33,443 nt of DNA from a virus. Under the pieces are notes generated by a model. It was not told the DNA's origin. It saw only the letters and a program-made list of their open reading frames with translations, and did not search any database. The DNA lies in the IMG/VR virus record IMGVR_UViG_3300035182_002588, positions 1 to 33,443 of that record, one strand, 5' to 3'. This document shows positions 1,892-6,879 of this stretch, one piece after another. Every line of letters starts with the position of its first letter. Position 1 is the first letter of the stretch. The position numbers were made by a program, and so were the translations under genes.

Positions 1892-2238
1892 GGATCCCGA
1901 CGCTGCACGAGTGCGTCGTCGCCGCTCGCAGGGCCGCCGTGCCGCTCGCGGTGGTGCAGCCGCACGGGAGGATGGACGTGACCGAGCCCGCCGCCGAGGA
2001 CCGCTGCCCTTCCTGCCTGATGACCGGGTTCGAGGCGCTCGTCCTGCCGTGCGCGCACTGCGGCATCGGCGGCTGCGACCTGTGCATCTTCGACGGCGAC
2101 CCGGTGTACAACGACCCCACCTGCTGCGCCGCGGCGCGGGCGCAGTCGGAGGCGTGGTGGGCGATGTCGGGCGCGGAGCGGCGGACGCACGACCGGTGCA
2201 CCGCGGCCGCCGCGTCCCTCGCAGGAGGCGCTCCATGA
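1888..2238 (+). CDS. cysteine-rich zinc-binding protein, 116 aa
   Basis: Residues about 41-80 hold an ordered cysteine set: CPSC, then CAHCGIGGCDLC, then a CC pair. This is compatible with one or two zinc sites of treble-clef or RING-like type. The N-terminal 35 residues and C-terminal 35 residues are helical. ATGA overlaps link it to both neighbours. In its family context such proteins bind nucleic acid or protein partners. No enzyme motif is visible, and the role is not known. It is one of several zinc-ribbon proteins in the window. Confidence 0.65.
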   Translation: MRIPTLHECVVAARRAAVPLAVVQPHGRMDVTEPAAEDRCPSCLMTGFEALVLPCAHCGIGGCDLCIFDGDPVYNDPTCCAAARAQSEAWWAMSGAERRTHDRCTAAAASLAGGAP

Positions 2239-2732
2239 GGAAGACCCAGCCCCGGCTCCGGCAGATGCCGCTCCTCCTGTCCCCCGAGCTCGAGCGCAGG
2301 GTGGCCGCGCTCCCGGCGGCGCTCCGCGACCTCGCCCACGGGTTGCACATGCTCATGACCGACGACGACCGGACCTGGCTCGAGGTCCTGGTCGCCGCCG
2401 TGGCGGCCGAGGTGGGCGCCGACCTCGAGGCGGTGCTCGCCGGCGACCGGCGGCGCCCGAACGCGGGGGCGCGCCACGCGGGCTGGCACGCCATCCGCGC
2501 CGGCACCAACGGGCGCGCCTCCCTCCCGGACATCGGGAAGGCCTTCGGCGGGATGCACCACACCACGGTCCTCTCGGGCCTCAGGAAGCACGAGCGGCGT
2601 CTCGCCGGCGACCGCTTCGTGGCGGAGGCCGTGGAGCGGTACCAGGCCGGCCAGGCCGGGCAGGCCGGCCAGGTCGGGCACGGCGGCCAGGCCGGCCAGG
2701 CCGTGGCGGACGAGAAGGACCGCGCCGCATGA
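2235..2732 (+). CDS. stand-alone DnaA domain IV-like DNA-binding protein, 165 aa
   Basis: Residues about 46-136 match the C-terminal DNA-binding domain of DnaA: a helix (VAAEVGADLEAVLAG), a basic helix, then LPDIGKAFGGMHHTTVL-GLRKHE. The known signature is IG-x-x-FGG-x-D-H-T-T-V, so the HTT core is kept but the usual RD pair is MH here, which may change base recognition. There is no AAA+ domain: the whole protein is only 165 aa. The C-terminus is seven Q-A-G-like triplets from a 9-bp tandem repeat. It is coupled (ATGA) to the next gene, which carries a DnaA domain I-like region. Likely role: origin recognition for phage replication. Domain assignment is good; the role is inferred. Confidence 0.8.
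   Translation: MRKTQPRLRQMPLLLSPELERRVAALPAALRDLAHGLHMLMTDDDRTWLEVLVAAVAAEVGADLEAVLAGDRRRPNAGARHAGWHAIRAGTNGRASLPDIGKAFGGMHHTTVLSGLRKHERRLAGDRFVAEAVERYQAGQAGQAGQVGHGGQAGQAVADEKDRAA
2643..2705 (+). repeat. seven-unit 9-bp tandem repeat (CAGGCCGGC-like)
   Basis: Seven consecutive 9-bp units of the type CAGGCCGGC run in frame at the 3' end of the DnaA domain IV-like gene and encode Q-A-G triplets (one V and one H variant). The unit length keeps the frame, so copy number could vary without destroying the gene. It probably forms a flexible tail, but repeats just before the initiator gene could also bind a protein. Confidence 0.8.
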
Positions 2733-4504
2733 CCTCGATGGGCGCGCTCTCGACGCCGGCGTCGCGCTCCGAGATGGAGCGCGCGGCCGACGGCGTGCGC
2801 CCGAAGGCGCTCAAGACCGATACGGGCGCGAAGCTCACCGTGCTGGATGACATCCGGCGCGGCGTGCTGGAGCAGCGGTGCTGGACGGCGAATGAGCGCC
2901 TGGTGATCGCGCTGATCCGGCTGCTCACGGACAACGGCACGCTCTGCACCCCCCGCATCTCCGTGCGCCAGATCTCGGACAAGCTACGAGGCGAGCCGGG
3001 GCGCGGGCCCTCCAAGCGGACGATCCAGCGGATCCTGCGCATCCTCAAGCTCGCCGGGGTGATCACGATCCACGGGGCGAAGGTCGCGGGGACGCAGATC
3101 AACGACCGGAGCATCTACGAGTTCCACCCCAAGGTGCTCCTCGAGTGGAGCGGCGCGGCGCGCCCGCCAGAATGGGACGCGGCGGCGGCCCCCGAGGATC
3201 ACGCCGGGGAGGACGAGGCCTGCCTGTCGCTCCCTCCGTCTCTTGCCGACGCCGTCGAGGCGGCTCGGCTCCTCGGCGGCCGGCCGACCCACGACCCCGT
3301 GTTCACGCGGGCGGCGAAGGACTCGCTGCAGGTCGACACGCGCCGGCGCAACCAGGCGCGCGCCCGCGCTCGCATGGCGGCGCGGGACGCGCGCATCGCG
3401 CGCAGCGCCGCGGACGTCATCGCTCGGGTGACGGCCGCGGTTCCGGAGGCCTCCTCGCTCCCTGCGTTCTCGCCCGCCGCCCCGGACGCGGCCCCGCCCA
3501 GCACCGCCGAGGGGGTGGTGACACGGCCAGAGGGTGGTGACAGCGTGACGCCACCCCCCTCCCCCCAAGAGCCCACTTTTAGCGGCATTTCTCCAGGTCC
3601 GGCACCGAGCGGAGGTGGTGACACGGCAGGGGGTAGCGACAGCGTGTCACCACCCCACCACCTTGCCCCGCCCGTCGTGCTCGCCCTCGAGCGGCCTCCC
3701 GGCGGCGCGGTCGAGGTCGAGGTCGAGCTCGTCGACCAGGCCGGCGAGGATGACGAGCTCGTCGTCCTCGAGGAGCCCCCGCTCACGCCCCAGGAGATCC
3801 GGGCCTTCGACGGGGAGATCCTCTCCATCCTGTGCCGCTACCCCTGCTTCAGGCCGATCGCGACCAGGCCAGCCGCGGCGAAGGTCGGCTGGAGCGCGCG
3901 CAAGCGCGGGACGCCGCTGGAGCGGTGCGAGGTCGCGCTCGAGCGGTTCGCCTTCAAGCTCGGCCGCGGGCTGCTCCCAACGGCAACCACGCCGTTGGAC
4001 CTCCTCCGGCTGGCCCGCGCCTTCGTGAAGCGCGATCGGGGCGTCGATCCGGATGCGCCGGTGCCGGACATCCTCGCACAGATCCCGCGGCCGCCGACGG
4101 AGGCGGACGTGCCCGATCCCACCGCGGAGGAGATCGCCGAGATGAACGCCCACCTCGGCCTGACCCTGGAGAGCCGCGCCGAGCTGCGCGCGCGGGTCGA
4201 GCGCTGGTCGCTGTTCGACCGGGCCGCCCAGGTCCTGCGCGCCCGGGCGCCGCAGCAGTTCGACATGTGGCTCCGCGGCGCGCAGTACGAGTCGCTGGCC
4301 GAGGACGGCGCGCTCGTCTTGCGTGTGCAGAACGACTTCATCCTCGACTGGGTGAAGGCCAATTTTCAGACGGCGATCGTCGTCGCGCTCGCCGAGCTGC
4401 TCGGTGTCCCCGTCCGGGTGACCTGGGTGGTGAACCCGCGCATCGACACGCCCGTCCCCCTCGGCGTCTGCCCGACTCGTCTCGACCCACCCCACTCCAG
4501 CTAA
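2729..4504 (+). CDS. replication initiator: winged helix plus DnaA domain I-like C-terminus, 591 aa
   Basis: Residues about 45-135 form a helix-turn-helix/winged-helix of the kind found at the start of phage and plasmid replication proteins (ISVRQISDKL, SKRTIQRILRILKLAGVITI). Residues about 150-350 are a charged, Pro/Gly-rich linker. Residues about 491-570 closely match DnaA domain I: LFDRAAQVLRARAPQQFDMW, then LVLRVQNDFILDWVKANF and a final beta strand. In DnaA this domain binds the DnaB helicase and other partners. No Walker A/B motif is seen, so it is not an ATPase. It is coupled by ATGA to the DnaA domain IV-like gene. Proposed role: bind the phage origin and recruit host DnaB. The repeats at 3513-3663 lie in its linker-coding part. 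Confidence 0.8.
   Translation: MTSMGALSTPASRSEMERAADGVRPKALKTDTGAKLTVLDDIRRGVLEQRCWTANERLVIALIRLLTDNGTLCTPRISVRQISDKLRGEPGRGPSKRTIQRILRILKLAGVITIHGAKVAGTQINDRSIYEFHPKVLLEWSGAARPPEWDAAAAPEDHAGEDEACLSLPPSLADAVEAARLLGGRPTHDPVFTRAAKDSLQVDTRRRNQARARARMAARDARIARSAADVIARVTAAVPEASSLPAFSPAAPDAAPPSTAEGVVTRPEGGDSVTPPPSPQEPTFSGISPGPAPSGGGDTAGGSDSVSPPHHLAPPVVLALERPPGGAVEVEVELVDQAGEDDELVVLEEPPLTPQEIRAFDGEILSILCRYPCFRPIATRPAAAKVGWSARKRGTPLERCEVALERFAFKLGRGLLPTATTPLDLLRLARAFVKRDRGVDPDAPVPDILAQIPRPPTEADVPDPTAEEIAEMNAHLGLTLESRAELRARVERWSLFDRAAQVLRARAPQQFDMWLRGAQYESLAEDGALVLRVQNDFILDWVKANFQTAIVVALAELLGVPVRVTWVVNPRIDTPVPLGVCPTRLDPPHSS
3513..3663 (+). repeat. iteron-like repeats inside the initiator gene (candidate replication origin)
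   Basis: The 10-mer GGTGGTGACA occurs at 3514-3523, 3533-3542 and 3614-3623. A variant GGTAGCGACA lies at 3632-3641, and an inverted copy TGTCACCACC at 3645-3654. They form two blocks of about 36 bp exactly 100 bp apart (3513-3549 and 3613-3647), both also containing GACAGCGTG. The sequence between has a less GC-rich patch near 3568-3592. Iterons inside the initiator gene are the known layout of lambda-type phage origins. Repeat structure is seen directly; the origin function is inferred. Confidence 0.6.
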
Positions 4505-4563
4505 TCCGCCCCGGCCGACGGCCGTGGCCGCGATACCGCGGGTCGCCCCACTGCGTCCTTGGT

Positions 4564-4592
4564 GGCGTCCGTCTGTCACTATCTGTGACGCC
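4564..4592. promoter_or_regulatory. nested inverted repeats GGCGTC/GACGCC and GTCAC/GTGAC
   Basis: GTCAC-TATCT-GTGAC (4575-4589) is a perfect 5-bp inverted repeat. It sits inside a wider GGCGTC (4564-4569) and GACGCC (4587-4592) pair. It lies about 70 bases after the initiator stop. The GTGAC element is shared with the iterons in the initiator gene and with the inverted repeat before the repressor gene, which suggests one protein may bind all of them. Binding is not proven. Confidence 0.4.
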
Positions 4593-4687
4593 GCGCCGTC
4601 ATGGTCGGTGGCGTCTCACTGGCACGCCGTGGCGCCGAGCGGGCGTGGACCTGGCGGCGCTCCGGCGTGCCGTGGTGTCCGGCTGGC

Positions 4688-4906: not shown

Positions 4907-5263
4907 ATGACGACGCCCGCCCTCGACGCTTCGCCCGCCTCCGCCGACATGCCCCGAGACTACGGCCCGCGGACAGCGGTGGACGAGCCGCGGCGCTGCA
5001 AGCGGTGTCGCCGGCCGGTCCCGGCGGGCTCTCGTCGTCACGAGTGCCCTCGGTGCGTGGTGCAGGCCTCTCGGGGGGTCGCGGCGAGCTCGCCCTGCGC
5101 CGTCTGCGGGTGCGGCGACGTGCGGGTGCTGGCGCTGGTCGCCCTGGCCGACGGCCCGGTCTCGCTCTGCGCCAACGACCGCGTCCTCGCCGGCCGGCTG
5201 AAGCTCACGCTCGCCGAGCTGCGGCACGAGGCGGCCGCCGGCGCCGCCGGCGCCGCGGCCTGA
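4907..5263 (+). CDS. zinc-ribbon protein, 118 aa
   Basis: Two cysteine clusters are visible: CKRC with CPRC (residues about 31-52) and CAVCGCGD followed by a later Cys in the form SLCANDR (about 65-93). These suit one or two zinc ribbons. The C-terminus is Ala/Gly-rich and probably disordered. An in-frame GTG directly precedes the chosen ATG; I prefer the ATG. No good ribosome binding site is close, and the start region overlaps a CACGTG palindrome. A hairpin terminator follows 30 bases after the stop, so it may be a one-gene unit. Function unknown; nucleic acid binding is plausible. Confidence 0.6.
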   Translation: MTTPALDASPASADMPRDYGPRTAVDEPRRCKRCRRPVPAGSRRHECPRCVVQASRGVAASSPCAVCGCGDVRVLALVALADGPVSLCANDRVLAGRLKLTLAELRHEAAAGAAGAAA

Positions 5264-5293
5264 CCCCGCCTCCCCTCGCCCGAGGGCCGACCT

Positions 5294-5332
5294 GGCCCGC
5301 TGCCATCGATGGCGGCGGGCCTTCGTCATTTT
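5294..5332 (+). terminator. rho-independent terminator
   Basis: A near-perfect hairpin spans 5294-5321: GGCCCGC and GCGGGCC arms closed by the inner palindrome GCCATCGATGGC, with one mismatch pair. It is followed by a T-rich stretch ending in TTTT (5329-5332). It would end transcription from the replication/zinc-ribbon genes before the integrase gene. Confidence 0.65.
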
Positions 5333-5364
5333 GGCGGCCCCAGGCCCCCGCCGCGGCGTCCCGT

Positions 5365-5421
5365 GATCCTCTCCGGATCGTGGCGATCCTGTCCGGATCG
5401 TCCACCGCCTCTCCAGTTCGT
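5365..5421. repeat. three direct repeats with exact 20-bp period upstream of the integrase
   Basis: The 14-mer CCTCTCCGGATCGT (5368-5381) recurs as CCTGTCCGGATCGT (5388-5401) and, more diverged, as CCTCTCCAGTTCGT (5408-5421). The first two extend to 17 bp with GATC in front. The 20-bp period puts all three on the same DNA face, two helical turns apart. They lie between the terminator and the integrase ribosome binding site, so they may be operators for the integrase promoter or arm-type integrase/excisionase sites. Confidence 0.7.
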
Positions 5422-5443
5422 CACCCTCACGAAGGAGTCGACC

Positions 5444-6466
5444 ATGTCGTCGAGCAGCTCGTCGCGCGCGCCCCCTGCCCTGCCCTGCCCGCTCGCCGTC
5501 GCGGCCGCGCCCTCGCCGTCGGCGCTGGCGGCGCTGGCGCCCACGGCGGAGCGGGCGCGCGCCTACGCCCGCGCCGGGCGCGCCACCAACACGAGGCGGA
5601 TCTACGCCAGCCGCTGGCGGGGGTTCGTGGCCTGGTGCGGCGCGCGCGGGGTTTCGTCGCTGCCGGCCGCGCCGGAGATCGTGGCGCTGTACATCACCGA
5701 GCTGGCGGACAGCGGCCGGGCTGCGGCGACGATCGAGCTGTCGCTCACCGCCATCGCGCAGGCGCACGCGCTCGCCGGCGAGGCCTCGCCGCGCGGCGAC
5801 GCCGCTGTGCAGCAGGTGCGCGCCGGCATCCGGCGCACCATCGGCACCCGGGCGCACGGCAAGGCCCCGCTGCTCGCCGGGGCCGTCCGGGTGGCCCTCC
5901 GCGCGCTCGGCGAAGGGGCGCTGCCGCTGGCCGCGGCGCGGGATCGCGCGCTGGTGCTGGTGGCCTGGTTCGGGGCGCTGCGCCGGTCGGAGCTGGTGGC
6001 GCTCGACGTGCGGCACGTGCGGTTCGTGGCGGAGGGGCTGGAGGTGCTGCTCGAGCGGAGCAAGACCGACCAGGAGGGCGCGGGGCGCACCGTGCCCTTG
6101 CCGCGCGGCCGCGACCCGGAGACCTGCCCGGTGCGGGCGCTGCGGGCCTGGCTCACCGCCGCGACCATCACCGAGGGCGCCGTCTTCCGCTCCATCACCA
6201 GGTGGGGCCGCCTCGGGCCGCGGCTCTCGGGGCACGCCGTGGCCGTGGTGATCAAGCGGGCCGCGGAGGCGGCCGGCGTGGACCCGGCGACCATCGGCGC
6301 GCACAGCGCGCGCATCGGCCTGGTGACCGAGGCGGCGCGGCAGGGCCGCGGCGAGGCGCGGATCATGCGGATCACCGGGCACACGAGCGTCGCGATGTTG
6401 AGGCGGTACATCCGCGACGCGGAGCAGTGGCGGGACGTGGCGAGCGAGGGGCTGCTCGACGTGTAG
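5444..6466 (+). CDS. tyrosine recombinase (integrase), 340 aa
   Basis: This is a site-specific recombinase for phage integration and excision. Residues about 36-135 form the core-binding (SAM-like) domain (TNTRRIYASRWRGFVAWC). The catalytic domain shows Arg180 (FGALRRSEL), Lys207 (RSKTDQ), His287-x-x-Arg290 (AHSAR), His313 (ITGHTS) and the nucleophile Tyr322 (LRRYIRD). All expected residues are present. The ATG at 5444 follows a good AAGGAG. The first 35 residues are Ser/Ala/Pro-rich. Its presence makes the element temperate by integration, not by Mu-type transposition. The gene runs the same way as all others, unlike many integrases, which face away from the lytic genes. Confidence 0.9.
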   Translation: MSSSSSSRAPPALPCPLAVAAAPSPSALAALAPTAERARAYARAGRATNTRRIYASRWRGFVAWCGARGVSSLPAAPEIVALYITELADSGRAAATIELSLTAIAQAHALAGEASPRGDAAVQQVRAGIRRTIGTRAHGKAPLLAGAVRVALRALGEGALPLAAARDRALVLVAWFGALRRSELVALDVRHVRFVAEGLEVLLERSKTDQEGAGRTVPLPRGRDPETCPVRALRAWLTAATITEGAVFRSITRWGRLGPRLSGHAVAVVIKRAAEAAGVDPATIGAHSARIGLVTEAARQGRGEARIMRITGHTSVAMLRRYIRDAEQWRDVASEGLLDV

Positions 6467-6615: not shown

Positions 6616-6879
6616 ATGGCCAGAGTCGCGGGCCTGCGGCACAACGCGGGGAGCTGGGAGCTCTGGAAGGTGCTCCAGAACAAAACCCAGGAGGTGTTCG
6701 CCGCCCTCCTGGATGTCGACCGCTCCACGATCTCGCTGTGGAAAAACGGCAAGCGCCGGCCCGCCCACGAGGCGCGCTGCAAGCTAAGCGAGCGCGTGGG
6801 CATCGATCCGAAGGCGTGGGACCAGCCCGCGCCGGCATCCGCGCCCGGCCACGACTCGGACCCACCGATTCCCGCGTAG
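6616..6879 (+). CDS. XRE-family helix-turn-helix regulator (repressor candidate), 87 aa
   Basis: Residues about 21-65 have the Cro/CI-type helix-turn-helix pattern: KTQEVFAALLDVDRSTISLWKNGKRRP. The tail is Pro-rich and short, with no peptidase or dimerisation domain. The ATG at 6616 was chosen over the upstream in-frame GTG at 6577 because that GTG lies inside an inverted repeat. It stands alone between the integrase and the next gene, with a different inverted repeat on each side. Probable role: control of lysogeny or of early promoters. It could equally be a Cro-like switch protein. Confidence 0.7.
   Translation: MARVAGLRHNAGSWELWKVLQNKTQEVFAALLDVDRSTISLWKNGKRRPAHEARCKLSERVGIDPKAWDQPAPASAPGHDSDPPIPA

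Follow-up and report, generated by a model that had tools for sequence, protein, structure and literature searches.

The initiator O of phage lambda is a winged-helix protein, and the dyad-symmetric repeats of its origin lie within its own gene. Its C-terminal part brings in the DnaB machinery, with the contact running through the P protein. In E. coli DnaA, residue F46 contacts DnaB. Phage replication proteins with a DnaA N-terminal domain are presumably annotated as such in databases, and a literature search returned no paper on them.

Free DnaA domain IV proteins are already known in the form of GafY/HdaB and the N-terminus of GafA, and their published role is the activation of transcription of gene transfer agents (GTAs) (PMC9632790, PMC11150451, PMC9638019). 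GafY, a homologue of DnaA domain IV, activates a prophage-like cluster (PMC9632790, PMC11150451). The GafA N-terminus is DnaA-like, and gafA itself follows a small DnaA-like gene in Hyphomicrobiales (PMC9638019). HdaB and GafY are one and the same protein, and over-expressing it increased the copy number of some loci, as Frandi & Collier (2020) are cited in PMC9632790; Gozzi et al. instead attributed these effects to GTA activation (PMC9632790).

Here we analyse a phage operon that, like DnaA, holds both domain I (PF11638) and domain IV (PF08299). Unlike DnaA, it has no AAA+ domain III (PF00308), its two domains are carried by two proteins in reversed gene order, and the recognition residues of its domain IV are changed. 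The stand-alone domain IV, the phage-like setting and the position directly before a partner gene recall GafY/HdaB and the GafA N-terminus, although the neighbour is a replication-type protein and not GafZ (DUF6456). What is unusual is a DnaA domain I that ends a lambda-O-like initiator carrying its own repeats.

A phage record with DnaA domains on two coupled genes

The window is the whole of IMG/VR record IMGVR_UViG_3300035182_002588, 33,443 bases of linear DNA with a GC content of 73%, which may be a fragment of a longer genome. From the 5' end it carries small genes without assigned function, a domain IV-like gene (918–1400), two more genes without assigned function, the domain IV gene (2235–2732), gene 2 (2729–4504), an integrase and a CI-like HTH gene. 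Genes for terminase, portal, scaffold, major head protein, tail sheath, baseplate and tail fibre follow, and the phage is thus temperate and contractile-tailed. When GTDB genomes were scanned with the terminase, one contig of a Planctomycetota MAG matched, too weak a link to name a host. Frames recovered by a domain IV HMM from 294 Planctomycetota genomes were mostly of full-length size and were taken as host DnaA.

A preliminary description of this DNA had placed a stand-alone domain IV and a domain I on two adjacent, coupled genes with no AAA+ ATPase between them, and proposed searches with the DnaA_N and Bac_DnaA_C profiles. Both profiles matched above their curated cut-offs, and the coordinates and the coupling through a 4-bp ATGA overlap are correct. 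Pfam profiles detected no AAA+ family in either protein, and neither Bac_DnaA (PF00308), the DnaA motor family with the AAA+ domain III, nor DnaB_C (PF03796) has a match across the whole 33,443-base record. As the record is linear and perhaps a fragment, a helicase or loader gene may simply be absent from it.

The domain IV protein has altered recognition residues

The features of the first gene and its surroundings are:

918–1400, + strand: degenerate second domain IV-like protein; aligned part 1128–1358, HTT recognition motif lost
2235–2732, + strand: stand-alone DnaA domain IV protein, 165 aa; Bac_DnaA_C match at 2388–2588
2235–2369, + strand: N-terminal extension (residues 1–45) of this protein; 25 of 45 residues identical in the related phage L003, counted from invariant alignment columns
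2729–2732, + strand: ATGA stop/start overlap of 4 bp, coupling the domain IV gene and gene 2

PF08299 (Bac_DnaA_C) matches residues 52–118 of the 165-aa protein with E 3.1e-10 and 40.4 bits (cut-off 31.5). The alignment with TIGR00362 (DnaA) is confined to the domain IV portion, and the top PDB match by sequence search is 1J1V, E. coli DnaA domain IV. The change of RD to MH in the signature, noticed earlier, is real: GGRDHTT in E. coli reads GGMHHTT here. By alignment, the E. coli contacts made by the arginines around R399 and R407 and by H434-T435-T436 are kept, while R432 and D433 are replaced by M or T and by H in both the window phage and L003. Because these two residues are changed, the protein probably targets something other than the standard DnaA box. 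Standard DnaA boxes were considered as its target, but the window has none in the vicinity of the operon; other phages show a weak, scattered excess of such boxes (23 vs 13 expected). The sole TTTTCCACA DnaA-box-like site of the record is at position 6737, within the CI-like gene, and has a counterpart at position 1879 of a sister phage (L002). The domain IV gene ends in tandem 9-bp coding repeats (2642–2712), which give an AGQ-rich tail.

The 918–1400 protein keeps the first helices of domain IV. It is matched by BLASTP (E 3e-6, single comparison) and by a two-sequence HMM (28.5 bits, E 6.8e-11, single target), and has no Pfam match.

Gene 2 ends in a DnaA domain I

The second gene comprises:

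2729–4504, + strand: putative lambda-O-like replication initiator (gene 2), 591 aa; predicted architecture
2855–3124, + strand: probable winged-helix DNA-binding region, residues about 43–132; sub-threshold HTH_36/HTH_32, low-confidence model
3514–3654, + strand: probable origin repeats within gene 2, unit GGTGGTGACA; half-sites at 3514 and 3614, 23-bp hyphenated palindromes at 3533–3555 and 3632–3654
3788–4027, + strand: middle helical region, residues 354–433; low-confidence model
4223–4393, + strand: DnaA domain I (DnaA_N), from a profile search of the whole record; N-x-F-x-x-D-W kept

PF11638 (DnaA_N) matches residues 501–555 of gene 2 with E 5.2e-9 and 36.1 bits against a cut-off of 24.6, and the excised segment scores 41.2 bits. 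By sequence search its PDB matches are the DnaA domain I structures 4TPS and 2E0G, and the order helix-helix-strand-strand-helix-strand is seen in a model of mean pLDDT 42. This model was built from the single sequence and was excluded from the fold search. The N-x-F-x-x-D-W signature includes the residue matching E. coli F46.

The N-terminus matches HTH_36 (E 0.0025) and HTH_32 (E 4.6e-5), each under its curated cut-off, and the order of helices and strands in the same low-confidence, single-sequence model fits a winged helix. A disordered linker, the helical middle region and domain I follow. With a probable winged helix, internal dyad repeats and a predicted helicase-recruiting C-terminal part, gene 2 resembles lambda O; it differs in that the C-terminal module is a recognisable DnaA domain I, and its similarity to O-like PHROGs stays below threshold (phrog_345, E 0.35). 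Relatives of gene 2 were absent by tblastn from 50,697 phage and 72,556 plasmid records, and single-protein IMG/VR scans with the domain IV protein, gene 2 and domain I alone returned no direct relatives.

Repeats inside gene 2

Suspicion had already fallen on 3513–3663 as a DNA target, and clustered GGTGGTGACA repeats are indeed found there. Four exact copies lie within 141 bp, at 3514(+), 3533(+), 3614(+) and 3645(-), with diverged copies at 3546(-) and 3632(+) and no exact copy elsewhere in the 33-kb record. They form two units about 100 bp apart, in each of which a half-site precedes a 23-bp hyphenated palindrome, with a locally AT-richer patch (CCCACTTTTAGCGGCATTT) between the units. The exact copies occupy three frame/strand settings on both strands; since they differ in reading frame and strand, the constraint on the repeats acts on the DNA and not on the peptide. 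In third-order Markov simulations clusters of two or three arise, but a cluster of four appeared in none of 60 trials. The count of near-matches over the whole window is less striking (five were reached in 3 of 100 shuffles), and it is the clustering of GGTGGTGACA that carries the evidence.

Repeats with dyad symmetry thus lie inside the putative initiator gene, as expected of a lambda-O-type initiator, and this layout suggests that 3514–3654 is probably an origin. The collections searched yielded no relative of gene 2 in which conservation of the repeats could be seen. More GGTGGCGTC-like motifs occur at 4560–4615, in the gap after gene 2, and possibly extend the putative origin.

A related phage keeps the domain IV gene beside a different partner

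Related phages were obtained by terminase searches. A domain IV gene of the window subtype is present in one of these relatives only, L003, whose terminase is 83% identical. Its domain IV protein (gene at 1664–2125) is 49–50% identical to that of the window and shares the HHTT motif; the N-terminal extension (25/45 identical) is conserved to a similar degree as the DNA-binding part (38/80). An ATGA overlap at 2125–2128 joins the gene to one encoding a 581-aa partner. DnaA_N was detected neither in this partner nor, at E<=10, anywhere in the 52.5-kb L003 record, with the proviso that an L003 domain I may have diverged too far for the profile and so been missed. The domain IV gene is thus retained next to a partner that differs, one in which no domain I is detectable. 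The extension is conserved despite the different partners, which argues that it is not a partner-specific dock.

The C-terminal 129 residues of the L003 partner are modelled as seven helices with no strand (pLDDT 71), and a fold search with this part gave nothing significant in PDB or BFVD. A possible homology between it and the middle region of gene 2 was not clearly better than chance, 24 of 200 shuffles reaching the score. BLAST matches between gene 2 and the partner fell in low-complexity linkers and were discarded. Just after the partner gene L003 carries six perfect 22-bp direct repeats (CAAGCGGGCTCGACGACCCTGC) at 4018–4149, and further downstream a ParA gene from 4555, which suggests that L003 1664–5444 is a plasmid-like replicon and L003 a phage-plasmid. 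An integrase-like gene, however, is located at 6031–7131 of L003.

Many phages carry a free domain IV gene

Free domain IV genes were found in three sequenced phages, Bradyrhizobium ppBeUSDA76-2 and ppBjS10J-1 and Microcystis phage Mae-JY35 (75–97 bits). These proteins resemble the window protein in size (about 160–175 aa) and in their C-terminal Bac_DnaA_C, but keep RD or KD where the window has MH before HTT. With a profile-derived scan of IMG/VR, the relatives number at least 488; among the best 80 matches most are in ORFs no longer than 300 aa, and the sample, picked by the [RK]DH pattern, cannot tell how rare HHTT is. Two records labelled as phage, MT839132 (L016) and MT837670 (L017), proved to be bacterial chromosome fragments with full-length dnaA and dnaN and were dropped.

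The preliminary description had also asked whether the two genes co-occur in related phages. The domain IV gene recurs without a DnaA_N partner, both in L003 and in all 50 sampled phage records with a free domain IV; in this the sampled relatives differ from the window. DUF6456 (PF20057), the GafZ family, is over cut-off in one of the 50 and has no match at E<=1 in either the window or the L003 record. The downstream neighbours of 60 free domain IV genes comprise 113 proteins; 16 of them match a single replication-initiation PHROG, and others fall to primosomal, DnaB and primase families. None of these four kinds of family is among the listed top matches of the 86 upstream proteins, a smaller set of shorter proteins. 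Free domain IV is a common and widespread phage protein, probably an independent accessory, and is often encoded just upstream of replication initiators, so that its place beside a replication protein is less novel than had been supposed. In one such phage (L044) the gene downstream of the free domain IV, at 5148–5822, contains a repeat cluster (CACCGGAATTCC, four copies), which looks like an origin inside an initiator gene.

Discussion

The pair had been proposed to be the two ends of DnaA acting as one split initiator. The domain calls and the missing motor hold, and so, on the best reading, does the replication role of gene 2; the single split initiator finds no support in the co-occurrence data. 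Such a two-part initiator, in which the domain IV protein binds the origin and contacts gene 2, whose domain I recruits DnaB with no motor, would agree with two genuine domains on translationally coupled genes and with the frequent position of free domain IV genes upstream of initiators. The repeat strand TGTCACCACC and the DnaA box TTATCCACA also have a CCAC core in common, a weak likeness in a genome of 73% GC. The L003 repeats, however, have no such core, L003 keeps the domain IV gene and the overlap beside a partner with no detectable domain I, DnaA_N is missing from the 50 sampled phages, and the N-terminal extension is conserved though partners differ. We therefore regard a two-part initiator as quite unlikely, and give slightly less credence to its full form, in which the HHTT domain IV binds the GGTGGTGACA repeats and associates with gene 2, leaving helicase loading to domain I with no AAA+ engine.

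The free domain IV might instead be an activator of phage genes, akin to GafY or the GafA N-terminus, with no part in replication. Its kept HTH residues and the activity of GafY on a prophage-like cluster agree with this, as does the small DnaA-like gene that precedes gafA. Against it, the family of GafZ and the GafA C-terminus (DUF6456) is missing from the window and L003 and rare in the sample, and the downstream genes are more often of replication than of regulation; we consider this reading possible but rather unlikely. A protein that takes sites or regulators away from host DnaA, and thereby tilts host replication to the advantage of the phage, would match the role first proposed for HdaB and recall the copy-number effect of its over-expression, as far as the citing paper (PMC9632790) reports it. 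That effect has since been re-explained, and the replacement of R432 and D433 in both phages speaks against DnaA-box binding, which makes a host-directed factor very improbable.

We favour, with somewhat better than even confidence, gene 2 as a lambda-O-type initiator and the domain IV protein as an accessory factor in its own right within the replication operon. The two genes would then be neighbouring modules of this operon and not halves of DnaA. The putative winged helix of gene 2 may bind the palindromic repeats inside its own gene, and its domain I, a profile-supported match, would contact host DnaB and bring it to the origin; the helicase would be that of the host, because the record encodes no DnaB. 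DNA opening could proceed without an AAA+ motor, in the manner of lambda O. The domain IV protein most likely binds phage DNA, tuning operon expression or origin activity, and its HHTT reading head would direct it to sites other than standard DnaA boxes.

On the reading of gene 2 as a lambda-O-type initiator, DnaA domain I would be a portable helicase-recruiting tail, and gene 2 would offer a natural test of whether domain I alone can bring DnaB to an origin with no AAA+ motor. The free domain IV proteins form a large, little-studied phage family, often encoded beside replication initiators, and through them the GafY/GafA regulators are tied to phage replication operons.
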